Assembly: GCA_017626055.1 (NCBI GenBank)
Contig: JAGAJM010000014.1
Location: forward strand, 1 to 64,000
Direction of reading: 5' to 3'
Length of the DNA stretch: 64,000 bases
Source: a bacterium
GTDB taxonomy: Bacteria; Cyanobacteriota; Vampirovibrionia; Gastranaerophilales; Gastranaerophilaceae
Positions 12,029-33,254 of this stretch are shown here, in pieces. A model generated the notes under the pieces. The model saw only the letters and a list, made by a program, of their open reading frames with translations. It searched no databases and was not told the origin of the DNA. Each line of letters starts with the position of its first letter. Positions within the stretch are counted from its first letter, which is position 1. Both the position numbers and the translations under genes were made by a program.

Positions 12029-12098
12029 GTCATTCTGAGGTTTTGTTATAAATGAGATTCTTCGCTTCGCTCAGAATGACAAAACCGAAGAATCTCAT
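12029..12098. repeat. palindromic interspersed repeat, copy 1
   Basis: GTCATTCTGAG (12029-12039) and CTCAGAATGAC (12070-12080) are exact inverted repeats. A second pair, GAGATTCTTCG and CGAAGAATCTC, overlaps them. The element fills the gap between gpmI and the helicase gene. Related copies are at 13882, 26663 and 33172. Confidence 0.8.
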
Positions 12099-12107
12099 AA
12101 CTATTTC

Positions 12108-13646
12108 TTATTTAATTAATGATTTACCAGTCATTTCTTTTGGTTGCTCAATACCGAACAGTTGAAGAACTGTTGGAGCTACATCACACAATGCACCAGT
12201 TTCTCTCAATTCCATATCAGCAGGAGCATTGATTAAAACAAATGGAACTTCATTTGTTGTGTGAGCAGTTTGAGGCTTACCAGTTTCTTCATCAACCATA
12301 GTTTCTGAGTTACCATGGTCTGCTGTTAATAACATAACGATACCGTTAGCTTTACAAGCCTCAGCAATTTTACCAACACACTCATCAACCACTTTACAAG
12401 CCTTAGCAGCCGCTGGGATATCCCCTGTATGACCAACCATATCTGGATTTGCAAAGTTAACCAAAATAAATTGATATTTTGTATCTTCGATAGCTTTTAA
12501 TACATTTTCACAAACTTCTGGAGCACTCATTTCTGGTTGCAAATCATAAGTCGCAACTTTTGGTGAAGCAACAAGAACACGAGTTTCGTGAGCTTGAGGT
12601 TCATCGATACCACCATTAAAGAAGAATGTAACGTGAGCATATTTTTCAGTTTCAGCAGTTCTGAATTGGTTAATTCCATTTGCTTCTAAAACATCACCTA
12701 AAATGTTCACTAATTTTTCTTTCGGATAAGCTACTGGATATGTGAAAGTAGCTTCATAACTTGTCATTGTTGTATATAGAATATTTTTTAGAACTTTCTT
12801 TCTATCAAAACCATCAAAATCAACAAAATTCATAGCTTTGGTAATTTCACGAGCTCTGTCAGGTCTGTAATTGAAGAAAATAATTGAATCGTTATCGTGA
12901 ATTCTGCTTGCATTTACCTCTTCTTCACTACCAATTACTGTTGGCAATACAAATTCATCAGTTTCACCTTTTTCATAAGATTTTTTAATACCTTCAATAG
13001 CAGTTGCAGCTTTTTCGCCTTCACCAAGAAGTAATGCATTATAACCTTTTTCAACTCTATCCCAACGATTATCCCTGTCCATAATATAATAACGACCGAT
13101 AACTGTTGCAACAGGTGGAAGATTATATTTTGCTAATTCATCTTCAACAACTTGAACATATTCACAAGCACTAGCTGGAGGTGTATCACGACCATCTAAG
13201 AATGCGTGAACATAAACCTTAGTCAAACCATTATCAGCAGCCATTTTGATTAGGGCTGTTAAATGATCTAATGATGAGTGAACCCCACCAGTTGAAACTA
13301 AACCATAAATATGTAAAGCTGAATTATTTTTCTTCGCATGTTCAATAGCATTTAAAAATCTTTCATTTTGGAAGAATGAACCATCTTTAATTGCATTGTT
13401 AATTTTTGACAAATCTTGGTAAACAATTCTACCAGCACCCAAATTCAAGTGACCAACTTCAGAGTTACCCATTTGACCTTCTGGCAAACCAACATTTTCA
13501 CCATCAGCTTTGATGTGAATAAATTTTTCTTCTTTCTCTAATTTTGGAACATAAATTGGATTTGCCAATTTAGTCGCATCATATTTTTCTGAACCAGTTG
13601 AAATTCCCCAACCATCCATAATACATAGTAATACTCTTTTAGACAT
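12108..13646 (-). CDS. gpmI: 2,3-bisphosphoglycerate-independent phosphoglycerate mutase
   Basis: GpmI interconverts 3- and 2-phosphoglycerate in glycolysis, using two Mn2+ ions and a phosphoserine intermediate. The 512-residue length is typical. Visible motifs are CIMDGWG at the N-terminus (metal site), GNSEVGHLNLGAGR with the catalytic serine, HAFLDGRDTPP, RYYIMDRDNRWDR, FNYRPDRARE and LTADHGNSE (metal ligands). The ATG is preceded by AAGAAGGGA. A good promoter (13683-13711) lies just upstream, so the gene is transcribed independently of the autotransporters. No gpmA-type enzyme is present in the window. Confidence 0.98.
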   Translation of the reverse strand: MSKRVLLCIMDGWGISTGSEKYDATKLANPIYVPKLEKEEKFIHIKADGENVGLPEGQMGNSEVGHLNLGAGRIVYQDLSKINNAIKDGSFFQNERFLNAIEHAKKNNSALHIYGLVSTGGVHSSLDHLTALIKMAADNGLTKVYVHAFLDGRDTPPASACEYVQVVEDELAKYNLPPVATVIGRYYIMDRDNRWDRVEKGYNALLLGEGEKAATAIEGIKKSYEKGETDEFVLPTVIGSEEEVNASRIHDNDSIIFFNYRPDRAREITKAMNFVDFDGFDRKKVLKNILYTTMTSYEATFTYPVAYPKEKLVNILGDVLEANGINQFRTAETEKYAHVTFFFNGGIDEPQAHETRVLVASPKVATYDLQPEMSAPEVCENVLKAIEDTKYQFILVNFANPDMVGHTGDIPAAAKACKVVDECVGKIAEACKANGIVMLLTADHGNSETMVDEETGKPQTAHTTNEVPFVLINAPADMELRETGALCDVAPTVLQLFGIEQPKEMTGKSLIK

Positions 13647-13774: not shown

Positions 13775-16700
13775 TTATAACTGTTTCAACATCCCTGAAC
13801 TTGCGGTTCTTGATGTATTATGTCTAGCACCATATACCATTCTTTGTTCTGGTATCATTTGTTTTAATATCTTACGACTTCCGTCATTCTGAGCGGAGCG
13901 AAGAATCTCATTACTTGTTCGAGATCCTTCGGTTTTCACCTCAGGATGACGACTTAACTGCTTAGCTGCTTCGCTTCCTATCTTCTTAGCCTCTTTTTTC
14001 AAGAATGGTTTGAATACTTTTTGGCTATCATCTTTATCCTTACCGATTGCCCAACGGAAACCTGCAGTTAAAGAAATACCATTACGTCCACCATTTTGAA
14101 TCATTGCTTGACCAAATGCCATGAAATTATCTTTCATACGTTTTTGAACACCAACACCATATTGAACATATGGTTTCATACTCATACTTGGTAATTTCAC
14201 ACCATTTGCAGTAGCACTTGAGTTATCCATCACATTCCACACCATACTTACGCCTAAATATGGTTGCCATCCGCCTTTAGTATTTCCGATAAGTTTTAAC
14301 CCTGGGGCTAATTGTAATGCGTGTAATGGGTCGTTATTAATTCTTACACCAGCAGCGTTTGTATAATCGAAAGTATTTACAAATGTGTATGATACAAGCA
14401 TTGATGGTTGAAGAATTACTTTACCTTCTTTAAATTCGAAGTTATAACCCATTTTATTACCAATACCAGCAAGTAACATTGCATAATCTTCATTACCATA
14501 CATATTTGTATTATTAGCCACACTAGCACCAGTAGATAATGTAGTTGCGTTGAAGAAATTACCTTTGTACAAGGTCATTGTTCCGCCTAATAAACCACCA
14601 TTTTGATATGAATCAACACCAGAATATCTTTGTGATGCACCATTATATCCAATATAGCCAGTAAATACTCTGTCCCAACCGCCTTTGATACTTTCTAACT
14701 CTGTATCAAAACCAACCAAAGTACCATAAGTGATATTACTTACTTTTGGACCATTATCCAAATTTACACTTTCAAATGTTGCGTAAGGTTTTACCCAAGC
14801 ACTTGCAGTTTCTTGTCTTGTAAATAATGGTGAGAATGTTCCAACATCTGTTGCATCACCTGTTGGAGATAGAGCATATTTATTTCTATCTCTAATTGCA
14901 ATACGTTCAAGATATGGAATATTCATAAAGTTATCTGCGTTTTGGAATGCGTAGTTGAATGTTGTTGACATTGTTGACATAGCACCCGCAGCACTAGAAA
15001 CAGATGAACCTAGAACCGCTGGGTTAAACGCATCTGATGGGTTACCTGGAGTTGTACCAGCTCCACCACCAGGAACAATCACAGGTATTTTATCCCCACG
15101 AGTGAACACAAAGTATCCACCTTCACCTTGTCCATAATCATTAGTGTTATCATAAACTGCATTATATTTATAAATAGGTGTGTAGAATGTAGTTTGTTCA
15201 GGGTGAGGCATTTCACCAAAATTAGCTTCTACATTATTCATCAAACCTGTTTCTGCAAAGTAAATAGCGGCTACATCTTGACCATCTTTCATATCAGAAA
15301 TCATATTAAGACCACTAACTACTAAATTACCCTCATTATAACCATTAAATATCTCGTCACTATCTGATAACGGTCTTTGTCCATAGGAATCTTGAACCTC
15401 AAATCTATCCATTACTTCGTTTTCAAGGTCAACATCACCATAAAATTTTGTATCTCCATTGATAGTTAAGTTGTATGGATTAGAAACTCCAACTTCATTA
15501 TTTATCATAGAAAATGATCCAGAGTTCAATGTCAAGAAATGATTATCTAAAACATTATCTCTCAATCCTAGATGTAGGTTAGCATTTGATAAATACACCC
15601 AAGTTGGACCACCATAAATATTGCTATCAAATTCTTCATCAAGAGATCCTGGTTGAGGAGCAATAGCATAAATATTATTATTTAATGTAATTTTACCAGT
15701 TTCATCCCCTGTAAAATGAACAGCACCACCATTTAAAACAACCGCATCATCTATTTGGATTGAAGCACCAGTATTTGCAATAAATTGAAGATTTGAGTAA
15801 TCATCAGCAAAAATAGCTTCATTACGTTTGCCATAAGAATCCTCAACATAGTTTCCACTAATTACTGATTTATAACCATTATTTGCAATGATATCCAAAT
15901 CTCTTTGGGTATAAATCGCACCACCTCTAGCATAAGAATTTTCACCCTCAGCTTTTGCATAGTTATTTATGAATGACGAATTTACAATAGCAGGATTATA
16001 CGAAGGTACTTCCATATATGTACTTGGAATATTCTCTAATGATAAAGCTGCCTCTCGATTAGAATAACCATTATAAATTGCACCACCTGATGCTCTACTC
16101 CAAGAATCACCTGTTGATAATGCATAGTTTCCACTAAATGTTCCTGAAATTGTTGTTGGCTTGACACGACTATCACTTGTTAAGAAAATTGCACCACCAT
16201 ACGCATCACTACCTTTTGCATAGTTTCCTGCAAAGTTACCAATCATATTACCATAATAACCAGTTTCAACTGCAATAGCACCACCCATAGCAGGACCATT
16301 ATTTGCTTGAGCATAGTTGTTAGAGAAATTTGCATTGATATCACCAATACTACCATCAACAGCGCCTATTGCCCCACCTTCTGCCCAATAACGATATGCC
16401 ATTACAGAGTTGTTTTTAAATTCACCTGAGATATTACCAATGTAACCATCATTAAGAATCGCACCACCATAGGCACTTTCGTCAGCTTCAACTCTGTTAC
16501 CATCAAATACAGTATTTTCAATAGAACCGATTGATGAATTATAATCATTAAATATCGCACCACCATTTGCAAAACCATAATCTAAATTATTAATAGCAGC
16601 ATTGTTTTTAAATGTTGAATTAGCGATTTTATTAATTATTGAACCATCATTATATATTGCACCACCCATAGCATATGGAGATTGCGTACGAGGAGTTATA

Positions 16701-18931
16701 CTCTCGGGCCTGTTATCAATAAGAACTTCAGCTTTATTACCCTCAAATAGAGTATTACCAATAGTTGAAATTACACCAAAGTTGTTATACAACGCACCAC
16801 CTGAAGAATAACGATAAGATGTAGCTGCGTTATCCACAAATGCAGAATCCATAATACCTTTGTTGTTTAGCATCATATAATCATCAGGATATGGTGCAGA
16901 TTGATCATATGTTGAAATACTTTCTGGCTCTGAATAAGGTTCTTCCGCACCAATCATGCCTCTGTTTGAGATAGCACCACCCATAGCATAACTAGGAGCT
17001 TGAGCTTGGTTACCAACAAACGCAACATTTTTTATATTATTAATAGAATAAGCATTTGAAATTGCACCACCATCAGCTGACTCTTGATAAGAAGTTGCAG
17101 TATTTTCAATAAATGAAGCTGCGAATTTGCCCTCTTCTGCATCACCGCCAATTACACCAATAATTCCGCCATTTGCAATAGCACCACCTGATGTAGAATA
17201 ATAGCCTTCAGCTGAGTTGTTTTCAAAATTACCTTTAATATTTGAAATCATACTCCAATCTGAATTAAAAATTGCACCACCATAGGCACCCTCATTATAT
17301 GAAATTGCTTTGTTTCCAACAAAATCCGCTTCAATACCGCCAACAAATTCTGGACCAGAATAATACGCCTCTGGTGAAATTAAATCAACAGGGTTTTGAG
17401 TTAAAATTACACCTTCAGAAATAGCTTGTTCCATATCAACTTTAAACTCTGCAAATTCTTCATCTGAACAAGTGTAGTTGTATTCAATGGTATTAATTGT
17501 ACCAATTTTCATACCCTCAGCAAGTGCTTCTTCTAGCATTGTGTAAGGTACAACATCTTGACCTTCTGGAGCTACACCGTAAAAAATTAATGTTTCACCA
17601 CTTTCACTTGTGAAAGTACCTTTAATAACATCAACATTTTGAACCATACTACCATCGGCTTCTTCCACAGTACCGATATCATAATCGTTGACAATCGCAC
17701 CACCATAGGCAGCCTGAGACACTTCGACTTTATTGTCTTTAAATAAACCAGTTATAGTATCAACAATTCGACCACTATTATAAATTGCACCACCATAACC
17801 ATTACTATAATTTGGAGCATAAACTCCATTTTCTATAAAATCAGCATCAATTTTTCCTATTGTATTTTGGTTAGCAATAGCACCACCTCTATACTCCGAA
17901 GGGTTTGCAACATAAGTTTGAATACCACCATCATCTAAACTTGTAGGCACTGCCATTTGCTCCACGCTATTCCTAATAAATACAGAATTTGTTATATTAT
18001 CATATCTAGGAGTTTCATCATTTGCAGGTTCTACATTTGCCACTGCAGCTTTTGGCAAATTCACATAAATAAGCGCACCACCGCTGGCATAGCTATCCGT
18101 TGCTAAAACTTTATTCTCCGCAAAAATAGAGTTTTCTATTTGCAAACTACCTTCATGAATAATAGCTCCACCTGAATCACCTGAAATATTATTATAAAAT
18201 CCACTATTCTTAATATTCATAGAGCCGAAATTAGCAATAGCACCACCTGAATAATAAGCTCGGTTTCCCACAAAATTCCCAGTTAAACTTCCAACGTCAG
18301 CCCTATTGTATATTGCCCCACCTTCTTGAGCACTATTATCAATAAAATCACCAACAATCTTTTCAACGTCGCCATAATGATATGTATGTATCGCTCCACC
18401 TGAAGAATAAGATTCATTTCCTAAAAAATCACCTTTTATTGTACCAATAGAAGCGCCCCAATCTTTATATATAGCACCACCATCTGAATCTGAGTAATTG
18501 CCAACAAAATGTCCATTGATATTTACTGCATCTGTGCTATTAACCAAAATTGCACCACCCTCTTCGGTTGATGAGTTATTAAAATACGAAGTCTCAACAG
18601 TCATTGCTGATTCAATAACCTCGTGAGTTGATGACCCTTGCACAAGATCATCTATTTGAAGTTTTGTATTTTCACCAAAAGAATAATAAACAGGAACAAT
18701 TTCGCCAGATTCACTATCATATTCATACTTAGTAATGTAAGGAGTTTCAATAGAATCAGCATTGAAATTATCGCCACGACCAACTTCTGTCATAGTATAT
18801 AAAGACTCATCACCTAAAGTTGGATTAGCAAAATTATCAGCAGCTTGAGCTGAAACGCCAACACTAATCGCACATCCAGCTAGTGCCGTTGCAGATAAAA
18901 TCTTTGTTAAATCTTTACTACTTTTTGACAT
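13775..18931 (-). CDS. autotransporter adhesin with Pmp-like GGAI/FxxN repeats (paralog 1)
   Basis: This is a type Va secreted surface protein of 1718 residues. The start at 18931 has GAGG nine bases upstream and gives a clear signal peptide (MSKSSKDLTKIL..., cut after SAQA at about residue 30). The passenger carries about 23 GGA(I/L) motifs alternating with FxxN, the repeat signature of chlamydial polymorphic membrane proteins. It is expected to fold as a beta-helix. The autotransporter beta-barrel spans about residues 1380-1630 and ends in NGISLTAGFRWAIG. Unusually, about 90 residues follow the last strand. Residues about 1660-1683 (SRHPEVKTEGS...) are encoded by a palindromic repeat inserted in frame (13882-13951). 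The downstream paralog lacks this insert. The barrel is very similar to paralog 2. Confidence 0.92.
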   Translation of the reverse strand: MSKSSKDLTKILSATALAGCAISVGVSAQAADNFANPTLGDESLYTMTEVGRGDNFNADSIETPYITKYEYDSESGEIVPVYYSFGENTKLQIDDLVQGSSTHEVIESAMTVETSYFNNSSTEEGGAILVNSTDAVNINGHFVGNYSDSDGGAIYKDWGASIGTIKGDFLGNESYSSGGAIHTYHYGDVEKIVGDFIDNSAQEGGAIYNRADVGSLTGNFVGNRAYYSGGAIANFGSMNIKNSGFYNNISGDSGGAIIHEGSLQIENSIFAENKVLATDSYASGGALIYVNLPKAAVANVEPANDETPRYDNITNSVFIRNSVEQMAVPTSLDDGGIQTYVANPSEYRGGAIANQNTIGKIDADFIENGVYAPNYSNGYGGAIYNSGRIVDTITGLFKDNKVEVSQAAYGGAIVNDYDIGTVEEADGSMVQNVDVIKGTFTSESGETLIFYGVAPEGQDVVPYTMLEEALAEGMKIGTINTIEYNYTCSDEEFAEFKVDMEQAISEGVILTQNPVDLISPEAYYSGPEFVGGIEADFVGNKAISYNEGAYGGAIFNSDWSMISNIKGNFENNSAEGYYSTSGGAIANGGIIGVIGGDAEEGKFAASFIENTATSYQESADGGAISNAYSINNIKNVAFVGNQAQAPSYAMGGAISNRGMIGAEEPYSEPESISTYDQSAPYPDDYMMLNNKGIMDSAFVDNAATSYRYSSGGALYNNFGVISTIGNTLFEGNKAEVLIDNRPESITPRTQSPYAMGGAIYNDGSIINKIANSTFKNNAAINNLDYGFANGGAIFNDYNSSIGSIENTVFDGNRVEADESAYGGAILNDGYIGNISGEFKNNSVMAYRYWAEGGAIGAVDGSIGDINANFSNNYAQANNGPAMGGAIAVETGYYGNMIGNFAGNYAKGSDAYGGAIFLTSDSRVKPTTISGTFSGNYALSTGDSWSRASGGAIYNGYSNREAALSLENIPSTYMEVPSYNPAIVNSSFINNYAKAEGENSYARGGAIYTQRDLDIIANNGYKSVISGNYVEDSYGKRNEAIFADDYSNLQFIANTGASIQIDDAVVLNGGAVHFTGDETGKITLNNNIYAIAPQPGSLDEEFDSNIYGGPTWVYLSNANLHLGLRDNVLDNHFLTLNSGSFSMINNEVGVSNPYNLTINGDTKFYGDVDLENEVMDRFEVQDSYGQRPLSDSDEIFNGYNEGNLVVSGLNMISDMKDGQDVAAIYFAETGLMNNVEANFGEMPHPEQTTFYTPIYKYNAVYDNTNDYGQGEGGYFVFTRGDKIPVIVPGGGAGTTPGNPSDAFNPAVLGSSVSSAAGAMSTMSTTFNYAFQNADNFMNIPYLERIAIRDRNKYALSPTGDATDVGTFSPLFTRQETASAWVKPYATFESVNLDNGPKVSNITYGTLVGFDTELESIKGGWDRVFTGYIGYNGASQRYSGVDSYQNGGLLGGTMTLYKGNFFNATTLSTGASVANNTNMYGNEDYAMLLAGIGNKMGYNFEFKEGKVILQPSMLVSYTFVNTFDYTNAAGVRINNDPLHALQLAPGLKLIGNTKGGWQPYLGVSMVWNVMDNSSATANGVKLPSMSMKPYVQYGVGVQKRMKDNFMAFGQAMIQNGGRNGISLTAGFRWAIGKDKDDSQKVFKPFLKKEAKKIGSEAAKQLSRHPEVKTEGSRTSNEILRSAQNDGSRKILKQMIPEQRMVYGARHNTSRTASSGMLKQL
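13882..13951. repeat. palindromic repeat inserted in a coding region, copy 2
   Basis: CGTCATTCTGAG (13882-13893) and CTCAGGATGACG (13940-13951) are inverted arms of the same family as the intergenic copy at 12029. Here the element lies within the C-terminal tail of the autotransporter gene and keeps the frame open. The paralog at 19035 has the flanking residues (KILKQM) without the insert. Confidence 0.85.
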
Positions 18932-19034
18932 ACCAAAAATCCTCACAATATTTCCATCATAATAGTTAATTTTACTATTATTTAACCCTAATATCCTCAT
19001 TCAATAGGTTGATTTTAACCTCAAACACCAATTA

Positions 19035-22000
19035 CTATTTACTTTTAATAAAAGCTGTTTTTTGATAAGGTGACATTTGCTTTAAAATTTTTACTGTTTT
19101 TAAATTTTTACAATCTTTTTGAACGTCTTTATATTGAGGATTGCCATATCCTAATGCCCATCTAAATCCTGCAGTTAAAGAAACACCATTTCTTCCACCG
19201 TTTTGAACCATAGCTTGACCAAATGCCATGAAATTATCTTTCATACGTTTTTGAACACCAACACCATATTGAACATATGGTTTAATACTCATACTCGGAA
19301 GTCTAACACCATCAGCAATAACATCAGTCTTACCCATAGCATTCCAAACCATACTTACACTCAAATATGGTTGCCAACCTGTTTTAGTATTTCCAATAAT
19401 TTTAACACATGGTGCAATTTGAAGTGCGTGCAATGACTCATTATCGACTCTAACACCTGCAGCATTAGTGTAATCAAAAGCATTTATAAATGTATAACTT
19501 AAAAGTAAAGATGGCTGTAATATACATTTACCCCCTTTAAATTCAAAATTATAACCAGTTTTGTTACCAACTCCAGAATACAACATAGCAAAATCTTCAC
19601 TACCATACATTGTTCGACTATCCGAAACGCTAGCTCCGACAGAAATTGTTGTAGCATTAAAGAAATTACCTTTATACAAGGTCATTGTTCCACCTAACAA
19701 ACCACCATTTTGATACGAATCAACACCAGAAAATCTTTGAGATGCACCATTATAACCAATATAACCAGTTAAAGCTCTATCCCAACCATTTCCCAATTGT
19801 TCAATTCTAGTATCAAAACCTATCAACGTTCCATAAGCTATATTACTAACACTAGGACCATTTTTTAATCCAACATTTTCAAATGTTGCATAAGATTTTA
19901 CCCAAGAACTACTATATTCATCATTGTTAAACAATGAAGCCTGTTGCTTACCAAAAGTTGAAATCGCATATTTATTCTCATCTCTAAACGCAATACGTTC
20001 ACGATAAGGCAAATTCATAAAATCAGAAGCATTTTTGAAAGAATAATTCATAGTCTGATTCATTGTACCTAACACCCCAACAGTAGCCACTACAGAAGAC
20101 GACAAAATCGCTGGGTTATAATCATTTACAACTTCTCCAGTTCCTCTTGAGAAAATAAAATCACCATTTGAATTATTATATTGAACACAATATTTATAAA
20201 TTGGGGCAAAAGCTGTAGTCACTTGCGTATCTTTTGATAACTCATCAAAACCGATATATTTCACACTATCTTTGAACCCATTAAAAGCAAAAGGAACAGA
20301 CACTGTTTCATTTATTGAATCAGAAAGCAAATTAATTTTATCTACATTAATGGACACCCCATTTTGAACAATTGTATTTTGAGGCAATCTGTCCATTTTT
20401 ACATTTGCCAAATCCGCATCTAAATCCAGCTTAAAATCACCCTTAATATTCAACGAATTCATAGTATGATGCTCTATGCTATCAGTGATTAGATTTAAGC
20501 GACCAGAATTTATAAGAAAATCTGAAGTTGCCAAAGCATTTGAATCTTTGACAAACAACGTAATATCACTCAATGATACATTTGCATTTTTAATCTGATT
20601 ATTTAAATTAACAAAACTATCAGAACTACCTTTAATCTCTACTTTGTATCCATTTTCACCAGCTATTGAATCATCTAGATTTATTTTTCCGCCATTAACA
20701 CTATTCAACGTCAAAGTTTTATCCTTATCAGCAATGAATATTGCATCAGCAGAACTCTCAGAAGAATTTCCTGAAATATCAATGGTAGTTGAATCCGCAG
20801 TAAGACTAACATCAGCAAGAGAATATATCGCAGAGCCGTTCACTTGTGTTGCAATATTATCTATCAATGAAACATTAGTTAGGTTTATAACAGCATTAGG
20901 ATTTGTTGCATCAATAACGGAACCTCGTTCACCACTTGCACCAGTAATTTTAATATTAGACACAAATAATTCAGTGTCATTTGACAGCTGGAACAAGCTA
21001 TGTCCTTGAGCATTAATTGTAGATGGCGTATCTTTTGACAAACCAATAATTTCAAATTTACCAGAAGCAGTTTCACCCAAATTAGCAGTAAGGTTGTAAT
21101 CATCTGGGGTTCTAAAAACAAAACTTCTCTGCTCAAACCCTAGCTTAGAATTTATTACCTTCAGACCATCAAAAATTGTACCATTGATTGTAATACTATC
21201 ATTAACAGTGTTTGTTGTTGATAACTCTATACCATCAGGAACAGTAACTATTTGATCATTATATATAACATTTTCGATATATGGAATCGTAATTATATTG
21301 TCTGATAATGCAAGTTTCAAACCAGCATTTTGAGTTTTCAAAAGTTGAACAGTTATAGGAGTTCCAGAATAAGAATTCAAACAATTTAATAACCCTATTT
21401 TAATAACACCAGATGATTCTTTTGTTGTTTTTATACTATCCCCAACTCCATTTATTAAATCAATATCAAAATTATAAACAGCAGTATCGTCAGATTTTAA
21501 AGTATAAAATTCACTTTCTCCAATTTTATTATCCACAAAATCAACAATCACATTTTCAACAGAAACATCAGCTTTTTGAATTTGATTAAACAAGCCAATC
21601 TTACCTGTAGAATCCCCTGTCAAATACACATTATAACCAGTTTGCCCATCAATATAATCATTAAAAATTATTTTACCATTATTAACGGCACTCAATGTTA
21701 AATTCAAATTATTTCCATCAACATATATAGCTTCATTTAACTTTTGCCCACCAACTTTAACATAGTTATCCGTAAATTCTGAAACTTTATTATCAGCAAT
21801 AATATTCAAGTTAGACTTTGTATATATAGCACCACCTCTTGCAACTCCTTTTGAATTAGTATTTTCATTATAGTTGCCAATAAATAATGAATTTATAATT
21901 CCACCCACTACATTATCATTTTCATCTTTTCGTCCAATGGTAACCCCAGAATCAATCATCAATGCGCCACCTTTTGACTCTTCACCACCAGCAAAAGTAT

Positions 22001-23270
22001 AGTTACCAATAAACTTGCCAGTTATATTACCTATAACAGAATTTGGATTTAAGTTAATAGCGCCACCATATGACTTTAAATTTAGAGATTTTGCATAGTT
22101 ACCTGTAAAATAATTAGCTATAATATCTCCAACAGAATAATTATTACCTACATAAATCGCACCACCTCTTGCTGGGTCATTAACCCCAATAGCATAATTA
22201 TTTTTAAAGTTTCCTTGTATTGCATTAGTAATATAACCTTCATTCTGAATTGCACCACCTTGCGCATGATTACCAGAAACGTAATTGTCTATAAAATCTC
22301 CTTTTATATTATTTATAGTGCCCTTGTCATTAAAAATCGCACCACCACGAACAAGTGAAGATGTTGAACGAATATAATTGCCTACATAATCACCATCAAT
22401 ATTACCAATTTGACCTCTGTAATTATATATCGCACCACCTTTACCCTCATTTACAGTAATCAATGAATTTTCCGTAAAATCACCACTAATTGACAAAGTT
22501 TGAGATGCATTATCTGTATAAATAGCTCCACCGTGAGCCGTTGTCGCAGTAATTCTATTACGTAAAAAATCGCCTTGAATATTTCCCATTGTTGAGTTTA
22601 CGCCATTAAATATAGCACCACCCTTACCAATTTTATCTACAGAATTTAAAATAATTTCATTTTCACTAAAATCCGCAGATATATCACCTATTGTTGAAGC
22701 ATTCGTATTCCAAATAACTCCACCTTGAGCTTCTTTATTACTTTCAATTATATTTTTTGAAAACAATGAATCTGTTATAGATAAAATTTTACCATTTACT
22801 TCATTTACTATCACACCACCATAAGTAGCACCCAAGGTTGAAGAAAGTTTATTCCTCAAAAATTGCCCACTTAATTTAGTAATTTCGGCACCTTTATTAT
22901 AAATAACAACACCTTTAATATCAGCAGTATCGTGTAAATATTTATTATCAGCAAAAGTTACATTATCAAAACTAGCTTTACCAGCAGACATTTTAACAAC
23001 TTGTCCAATTGAATTTTTTAAAGCAGTATTTTTTATATTAAGCGCAGCATCAACATTTGAAATAACAAAGCCAGAATAACCATTCAAATCTATTGTTGAT
23101 TTTTTATCACCATCAACAACACCATTTATATTCCATATCCCACTAACATTCCCTATATTTTGTTCAGCAGTATAAACAGAATCTGCAGAATTAAAATCAT
23201 AATCAGACACAACAGCACCATTAGTTGGAGTATTTAACCCAACTAATCCTAAAGCCAAATATATAGCCAA
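19035..23270 (-). CDS. autotransporter adhesin (paralog 2), start codon uncertain
   Basis: This is a type Va autotransporter of at least 1411 residues. It has about eleven GGA(I/V) repeats in the first 520 residues, a less repetitive beta-helix-like middle, and a C-terminal barrel (about 1065-1373) closely matching paralog 1. A 71-base stretch is identical between the genes (19213-19283 and 14106-14176). The start is odd. The frame stays open upstream to about 23390 but contains no ATG or GTG. The only canonical candidate is the TTG at 23270, which cuts into the signal peptide and has no ribosome binding site at proper distance. Upstream in-frame residues (ISKDTISKR) would restore the usual basic signal n-region, and AGAGG lies five bases before an in-frame ATC. 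The true start may be non-canonical or mutated. The gene may form an operon with paralog 1. Confidence 0.82.
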   Translation of the reverse strand: MAIYLALGLVGLNTPTNGAVVSDYDFNSADSVYTAEQNIGNVSGIWNINGVVDGDKKSTIDLNGYSGFVISNVDAALNIKNTALKNSIGQVVKMSAGKASFDNVTFADNKYLHDTADIKGVVIYNKGAEITKLSGQFLRNKLSSTLGATYGGVIVNEVNGKILSITDSLFSKNIIESNKEAQGGVIWNTNASTIGDISADFSENEIILNSVDKIGKGGAIFNGVNSTMGNIQGDFLRNRITATTAHGGAIYTDNASQTLSISGDFTENSLITVNEGKGGAIYNYRGQIGNIDGDYVGNYIRSTSSLVRGGAIFNDKGTINNIKGDFIDNYVSGNHAQGGAIQNEGYITNAIQGNFKNNYAIGVNDPARGGAIYVGNNYSVGDIIANYFTGNYAKSLNLKSYGGAINLNPNSVIGNITGKFIGNYTFAGGEESKGGALMIDSGVTIGRKDENDNVVGGIINSLFIGNYNENTNSKGVARGGAIYTKSNLNIIADNKVSEFTDNYVKVGGQKLNEAIYVDGNNLNLTLSAVNNGKIIFNDYIDGQTGYNVYLTGDSTGKIGLFNQIQKADVSVENVIVDFVDNKIGESEFYTLKSDDTAVYNFDIDLINGVGDSIKTTKESSGVIKIGLLNCLNSYSGTPITVQLLKTQNAGLKLALSDNIITIPYIENVIYNDQIVTVPDGIELSTTNTVNDSITINGTIFDGLKVINSKLGFEQRSFVFRTPDDYNLTANLGETASGKFEIIGLSKDTPSTINAQGHSLFQLSNDTELFVSNIKITGASGERGSVIDATNPNAVINLTNVSLIDNIATQVNGSAIYSLADVSLTADSTTIDISGNSSESSADAIFIADKDKTLTLNSVNGGKINLDDSIAGENGYKVEIKGSSDSFVNLNNQIKNANVSLSDITLFVKDSNALATSDFLINSGRLNLITDSIEHHTMNSLNIKGDFKLDLDADLANVKMDRLPQNTIVQNGVSINVDKINLLSDSINETVSVPFAFNGFKDSVKYIGFDELSKDTQVTTAFAPIYKYCVQYNNSNGDFIFSRGTGEVVNDYNPAILSSSVVATVGVLGTMNQTMNYSFKNASDFMNLPYRERIAFRDENKYAISTFGKQQASLFNNDEYSSSWVKSYATFENVGLKNGPSVSNIAYGTLIGFDTRIEQLGNGWDRALTGYIGYNGASQRFSGVDSYQNGGLLGGTMTLYKGNFFNATTISVGASVSDSRTMYGSEDFAMLYSGVGNKTGYNFEFKGGKCILQPSLLLSYTFINAFDYTNAAGVRVDNESLHALQIAPCVKIIGNTKTGWQPYLSVSMVWNAMGKTDVIADGVRLPSMSIKPYVQYGVGVQKRMKDNFMAFGQAMVQNGGRNGVSLTAGFRWALGYGNPQYKDVQKDCKNLKTVKILKQMSPYQKTAFIKSK

Positions 23271-26662: not shown

Positions 26663-26698
26663 GTCATTCCGAAGGCGCTAGCCCCAGGAATCTCATAA
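26663..26698. repeat. half copy of the palindromic repeat, copy 3
   Basis: GTCATTCCGAAGGCGCTAGC and GGAATCTCATAAC resemble one arm of the element at 12029. It lies between nusG and rplK. The second arm is missing. Confidence 0.5.
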
Positions 26699-33171: not shown

Positions 33172-33254
33172 ATGTCATCCTGAACTGGATTCAGGATCTC
33201 ATCACTCAATGAATTAGCTCTATTATGAGATTCTGACTTTCGTCAGAAAGACAT
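33172..33254. repeat. palindromic repeat, copy 4 (diverged)
   Basis: ATGTCATCCTGAACTGG at one end and CGTCAGAAAGACAT at the other form imperfect inverted arms. GGATCTCAT and ATGAGATTC pair inside. It lies between the convergent GH57 and DUF3137 genes and ends exactly at the DUF3137 stop. Confidence 0.65.

Follow-up and report, generated by a model that had tools for sequence, protein, structure and literature searches.

A CGTC-type palindromic repeat pair inserted in frame in the C-terminal tail of an autotransporter gene of Gastranaerophilales

How does a palindromic repeat come to lie within an open autotransporter gene, and was it inserted there or does it belong to the ancestral tail of the protein? 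The question is raised by a 64,000-nucleotide stretch of DNA (the window), which is contig 4 of the 1.87-Mb draft genome of an uncultured Gastranaerophilales bacterium (labelled G000). For its gpmI gene, the closest named sequences come from gut metagenomes, many of them assigned to Candidatus Gastranaerophilales or Melainabacteria, so the host is a non-photosynthetic relative of cyanobacteria living in the gut. A preliminary description had placed a 70-base palindromic element within the C-terminal tail of the autotransporter gene AT1. The element was found at this position, with inverted-repeat arms at 13882-13893 and 13940-13951, but it proved to be two separate REP hairpins lying back to back rather than a single palindrome.

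AT1 is encoded on the minus strand by an open reading frame (ORF) of 1,741 codons (13775-19000), of which position 19000 is merely the start of the longest ORF; a start at 18931 (MSKSSKD..., followed by a signal peptide) is plausible. The protein has a Pmp-like passenger containing repeats of the Chlamydia Pmp type (Chlam_PMP) and a C-terminal β-barrel translocator domain (14051-14803, minus strand), which ends at ...AGFRW. In the AlphaFold2 model of a 342-residue piece, strands extend to residue 251, with pLDDT mostly 75-94, and fold comparison matches the barrel to the autotransporter translocators AIDA-I (E = 6e-14), EspP, BrkA, and NalP. Outer membrane barrels usually end with the last barrel strand. 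A C-terminal extension, KILKQMTPEQ...NTSRTAxSGxLxQ, follows this strand in many autotransporters of the lineage and is conserved among them. In AT1, the approximately 90 residues after the barrel, including the insert, are predicted to be mostly disordered (pLDDT mostly <50). They comprise a linker (AIGKDKDD...AAKQL, 13956-14050), the repeat pair, and a conserved tail in the same frame (KILKQM...GMLKQL, 13778-13873), which is also conserved in paralogues with and without an insert. The neighboring paralogue AT2 (19035-23270, minus strand) reaches KILKQM without the insert, as the preliminary description noted, and its linker is shorter in other respects too. Four other contigs of G000 (C3, C13, C19, and C26) break at their ends inside autotransporter copies (L170-L173), so the assembly does not show the full size of the family.

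The insert proper (13883-13950) consists of two REP-like palindromes of 27 and 30 nucleotides in inverted orientation. Unit A, GTCATTCTGAGCGGAGCGAAGAATCTC, occupies 13883-13909 on the plus strand and reads EILRSAQND on the minus strand; unit B, GTCATCCTGAGGTGAAAACCGAAGGATCTC, occupies 13921-13950 on the minus strand and encodes RHPEVKTEGSR; and an 11-nucleotide spacer (13910-13920) separates them. Both units pair over 5 bp, followed by a 2-nucleotide GA/AG mismatch and a further 2 to 3 bp. The 68-nucleotide element folds better than its shuffles (z = -2.87), and the window contains two copies of the core 27-mer, whereas shuffling predicts none. The AT1 ORF stays open through the insert in the frame RHPEVKTEGSR...EILRSAQND, and the repeats contribute the residues RHPEVKTEGSRTSNEILRSAQND. 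A 7-nucleotide direct repeat, ACGACTT, stands at 13874-13880 and again 75 nucleotides away at 13949-13955, and the insert plus one copy of it amounts to 75 nucleotides, or 25 codons; at this spacing, ...AAKQL would run directly into SRKILKQM if 25 codons were omitted. The repeat is a candidate target duplication that is not general to the family: across 178 element clusters, the mean shared end-string was 3.96 versus 3.86 under the null, and target-site duplication was rejected as a family property. In the absence of such an excess, the AT1 repeat may be due to chance.

Two further copies listed in the preliminary description, at 12029 and 33172, are both intergenic as claimed, but neither is a simple copy of the AT1 element. 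The former (12029-12102), beside gpmI (12108-13646), is a nested composite in which outer REP arms surround an inverted inner REP, and the latter (33174-33250) belongs to a different, ATCCT subfamily (GTCATCCTGAACTGGATTCAGGATCTC), with an 8-bp stem and a 5-nucleotide loop followed by a second hairpin. In addition, an intergenic variant with an ATTCC arm lies a few bases past a stop codon on the plus strand (26663-26694). The whole genome contains approximately 17 related elements, most of them intergenic and often immediately after a stop codon; four are genic and in frame, namely, those in AT1, in a short-chain dehydrogenase-type (SDR) gene on contig 5, and in two autotransporter tails at contig ends. 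The nested composite, of approximately 75 nucleotides, recurs between genes and inside genes for CoaBC and a Zn-dependent alcohol dehydrogenase-like oxidoreductase (Zn-ADH) (12029-12102, L304, and L258), and it may be the mobile unit.

In a comparison of the tails from 28 related autotransporter genes, most lacked a CGTC REP. Homologues without such repeats (AT2, L175, L176, L194-L200, and L364) align with AT1 on both sides of the insert, so that the insertion boundary anticipated in the preliminary description is present. Where REPs are present, in tails of G028, G000, and G023, the units differ from tail to tail and lie in the same linker, either singly or in stacks of up to four or more. 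Downstream of the insert, the tails of AT1 and L174 differ with a dN of 0.167 and a dS of 0.916, and dN is well below dS in most tail pairs of equal length (the L181 versus L365-L367 pairs were left out of this count because of indel misalignment). The conserved tail 3′ of the REP inserts thus appears to be mostly under purifying selection, and coding is maintained beyond the element. Conservation of the flanking protein on both sides, purifying selection on the downstream tail, and the many homologues without the insert together confirm, at the level of sequence comparison, that the AT1 segment is an insertion. Close orthologs offer no exact empty site for AT1, and the syntenic copy in G028 contains other REPs. 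A search for exact empty sites in G028 and G059 found intergenic copies that are absent from some relatives, but their ends have diverged too far to delimit the unit that was inserted.

Could the segment instead be part of an ancestral tail that paralogues have lost? One REP unit with its flank (AAGTAATGAGATTCTTCGCTCCGCTCAGAATGAC) is common to AT1 and the G028 paralogues L180 and L181, so the insertion either is older than their divergence or has been copied from one to another. Most relatives, including G018, G017, G010, and G059, nevertheless have tails without a CGTC REP unit, the tails that have one carry differing units, and the same sequence is found in intergenic DNA and in unrelated genes. 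Furthermore, the linker sequence differs between species and between paralogues and so is not a shared ancestral tail; loss of an ancestral segment is already largely refuted and is very improbable. It is even harder to believe that the insert is a chimera created in assembling a metagenome-derived genome. The G000 autotransporter copies at contig ends do indicate a gene family that is hard to assemble, but the AT1 insert is interior to its contig and keeps the frame, and similar inserts recur in independent assemblies, the SDR insert being common to G000, G009, G028, and G059.

The insertion in AT1 recurs as a type in other genes and species. Searching relatives for copies within genes, as the preliminary description proposed, revealed many in-frame copies: 16 of 96 element clusters in a systematic sample were intragenic and in frame, and a codon-usage scan gave 31 in-gene candidates among 186 clusters, a figure that includes chance matches (ATTGC arms in L099, L104, and L109 and an ATTCT match in L104). 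Hosts of in-frame REPs include genes for the SDR/FabG-like protein, LeuRS, ArgRS, CoaBC, RsmD, NIF3, the Zn-dependent oxidoreductase, an Xaa-Pro peptidase-like protein, and a dual ABC ATPase, and empty orthologues exist for SDR, CoaBC, and RsmD. A loop of CoaBC that is 24 residues long in most of the genus (for example, KNPDILAELCKNKTSQTIVGFCAE) shows REP-derived expansions, of 23 residues in G031 and 33 in G012, and in G033 it contains another palindrome. The SDR insert is progressively decayed across G000, G059, G009, and G028 and is absent from the other relatives read. The G028 copy (L374, at the end of contig C129) has an in-frame TGA soon after the decayed REP, which points to a pseudogene or else to a fault in assembling the contig end. 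LeuRS, with an insert at approximately residue 372 of 837, still matches its curated model over the full length (1,067 bits).

The choice of reading frame in these genes is not even. Two of the six frames of a REP unit contain a stop and four are open, yet 15 of 17 units use the hydrophilic frames EILRxAQND and HSERSEES and only two use VILSxAKNL (P = 0.001 for hand-collapsed events, which is approximate because units of the same element partly depend on one another). A preference for hydrophilic frames is to be expected if the inserts that survive are those tolerated in surface loops. Genes for CoaBC and an ABC ATPase, as well as autotransporter tails, also contain an in-frame palindrome of a second type (CCCTCTCCC...GGGAGAGGG-like), with the readings HPDPLPKGARE, SPHPSPQGEGE, or TLSLGEGA (L310, L241, L071, L364, L367, L368, and L253). 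The exact REP 27-mer was found in 46 stretches of a viral collection (L404-L449) from many different metagenome samples, and the repeat is therefore not confined to the lineage.

Within the 28 autotransporter genes, REPs are concentrated at one place: 15 units lie in 6,081 nucleotides of tails, versus one doubtful match in 59,043 nucleotides of gene bodies, an approximately hundredfold difference in density. The linker that joins the barrel to the C-terminal tail is thus, as judged from these sequences, a REP hotspot in which different REP families are stacked. Among three paralogues in G028, identity reaches 98% over a 123-nucleotide REP module but just 65 to 71% over the next ~107 nucleotides, and L174, L177, and L179 have one common prefix followed by different REPs. 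Such a pattern is consistent with the exchange of REP modules between paralogous genes, with direction and mechanism deduced from the pattern itself. It is tentatively suggested that the linker serves as a landing and exchange site, into which several REP families insert in frame and from which they are swapped between paralogues through recombination at the repeats, so that selfish palindromes would build and rebuild a segment of a surface protein. Different REPs are known from about the same recB site in two Xanthomonas species (PMC3733652); apart from that case, no precedent was found for REPs that repeatedly stack and are exchanged at a single site in a family of paralogues.

The segment in AT1 is very probably a back-to-back pair of nonautonomous CGTC-type REPs that entered the unstructured linker between the β-barrel and the short conserved tail. 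It would persist because its net length is a multiple of three, its frame is stop free and hydrophilic, and the site tolerates extra residues. Entry presumably involved a replicative or transposition-like process, and most in-gene copies may be near-neutral survivors; once present in paralogous autotransporters, the repeats could act as patches of homology through which modules are exchanged by recombination.

Two other accounts of why the palindromes are kept bear on this explanation. The concentration of REPs in tails, the occurrence of several REP families and other palindromes at one place, and the exchange of modules among paralogues would also be expected if the repeats varied the length and sequence of the tail adaptively, the hotspot then reflecting positive selection and not tolerance alone. 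This is rather unlikely, since the AlphaFold2 model and barrel topology suggest that a tail past the last barrel strand should face the periplasm and not the host, housekeeping enzymes in which no diversification is expected also hold in-frame REPs, and some REP-bearing tails belong to broken copies (L182 and L184). Alternatively, the palindromes could be retained for a role in RNA or DNA near the 3′ end of the gene, in mRNA stability or in a gyrase-related or terminator-like function, with translation being incidental. The folding of the 68-nucleotide element is consistent with this, as is the position of many intergenic copies right after stop codons, which is known for REPs (PMC3733652). 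However, inserts also occur deep within genes (LeuRS, CoaBC, and ArgRS), older SDR copies have kept the frame after losing the palindrome (CHSERSEES, CHSEQSEKS, and CQFGQSEES), and an Rfam search with the element returned no match; a primary RNA or DNA role is accordingly given little chance.

In the published view, CGTC REPs have no dedicated transposase, and the enzyme that mobilizes them is a stated open question (PMC3733652). No Y1_Tnp match, and hence no RAYT, was found in G000. RAYT-like Y1 transposases of about 150 to 240 residues are encoded by many relatives (among G004-G079), and their presence shows a weak association with higher REP numbers (P = 0.008 in a Mann-Whitney test across the genus that took no account of phylogeny). 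RAYT was considered as the mobilizer, but G000, G028, and G060 have REPs without RAYT and the RAYT-like genes are mostly unflanked by REPs; no link is claimed. The clade could help to answer the question of mobilization. Moreover, dozens of its species have been sequenced, so that for a given gene (SDR, CoaBC, RsmD, or the autotransporters) empty sites can be set beside fresh and decayed inserts, which makes the fate of such inserts directly testable.

Palindromic repeats that are translated tend to be cited as a peculiarity of Rickettsia, and a 2024 review of prokaryotic MITEs regarded the same route to new protein segments as merely "conceivable" elsewhere among prokaryotes (PMC10969869). 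The phenomenon, familiar above all from Rickettsia, thus also shapes proteins in a distant gut lineage. A literature search found no report of translated palindromic repeats in this lineage, in agreement with the preliminary description. The novelty it attached to the finding was overstated, since in-frame REPs have already been documented far outside Rickettsia: several species have intragenic REPs, among them dimers and also clusters that encode as many as 82 residues (PMC3733652). Intragenic CGTC REPs having been published for other species, the AT1 element is of a known kind, to which a lineage is newly added.

Of the known systems, RAYT-mobilized REPINs, built from GTAG REPs, share with the present elements the scattering of inverted REP pairs through a genome, but the tag here is CGTC, G000 has no RAYT, and the RAYT-like genes of relatives mostly stand apart from REPs. 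The coding palindromes of nematomorph mitochondria are likewise translated as part of functional proteins, although they are long, perfect, and maintained (PMC6649704), whereas those described here are short, imperfect, and decaying over time. The closer resemblance is to the CGTC-tagged REP superfamily (Di Nocera et al. 2013), in which a tag that is often TGTC precedes an 8- to 9-bp stem beginning with AT and a 4- to 5-nucleotide loop, the tail is mostly CCA, and dimers are predominantly head to head and only rarely tail to tail (PMC3733652). Both AT1 units start with an unpaired CGTC tag, the base before GTC being mostly T or C across the DNA examined, and the stem starts with AT in all units. 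A 3-nucleotide tail, dimers, intragenic units, and the lack of a dedicated transposase are further points of likeness. Unlike the published REPs, the tail here is mostly CTC, several units have the GA/AG stem mismatch, the tags of the AT1 pair lie outside (tail to tail, on a plain reading of the head as the tag end), and REP-in-REP composites occur. The analogy with Rickettsia palindromic elements drawn in the preliminary description is apt, as RPE-4 and RPE-6 of R. conorii have been classed as CGTC REPs (the CGTC-4 and CGTC-1 repeats, respectively) (PMC3733652). They too are short CGTC palindromes, single or paired, found in frame in unrelated genes, including housekeeping genes, and between genes (PMC3733652, PMC10969869). 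Their host, however, is an obligate intracellular alphaproteobacterium and not a member of Gastranaerophilales, a cyanobacterial lineage of the gut; the arms here are ATTCT, ATCCT, and ATTGC with CTC ends; and copies here pile up in one linker of paralogous autotransporters. In-frame insertion into unrelated genes with retention of the host protein, a property of RPEs, is also seen here as far as gene sequences indicate. Found in Gastranaerophilales, the AT1 element does not belong to a defined RPE family, but by analogy it appears to work like one.
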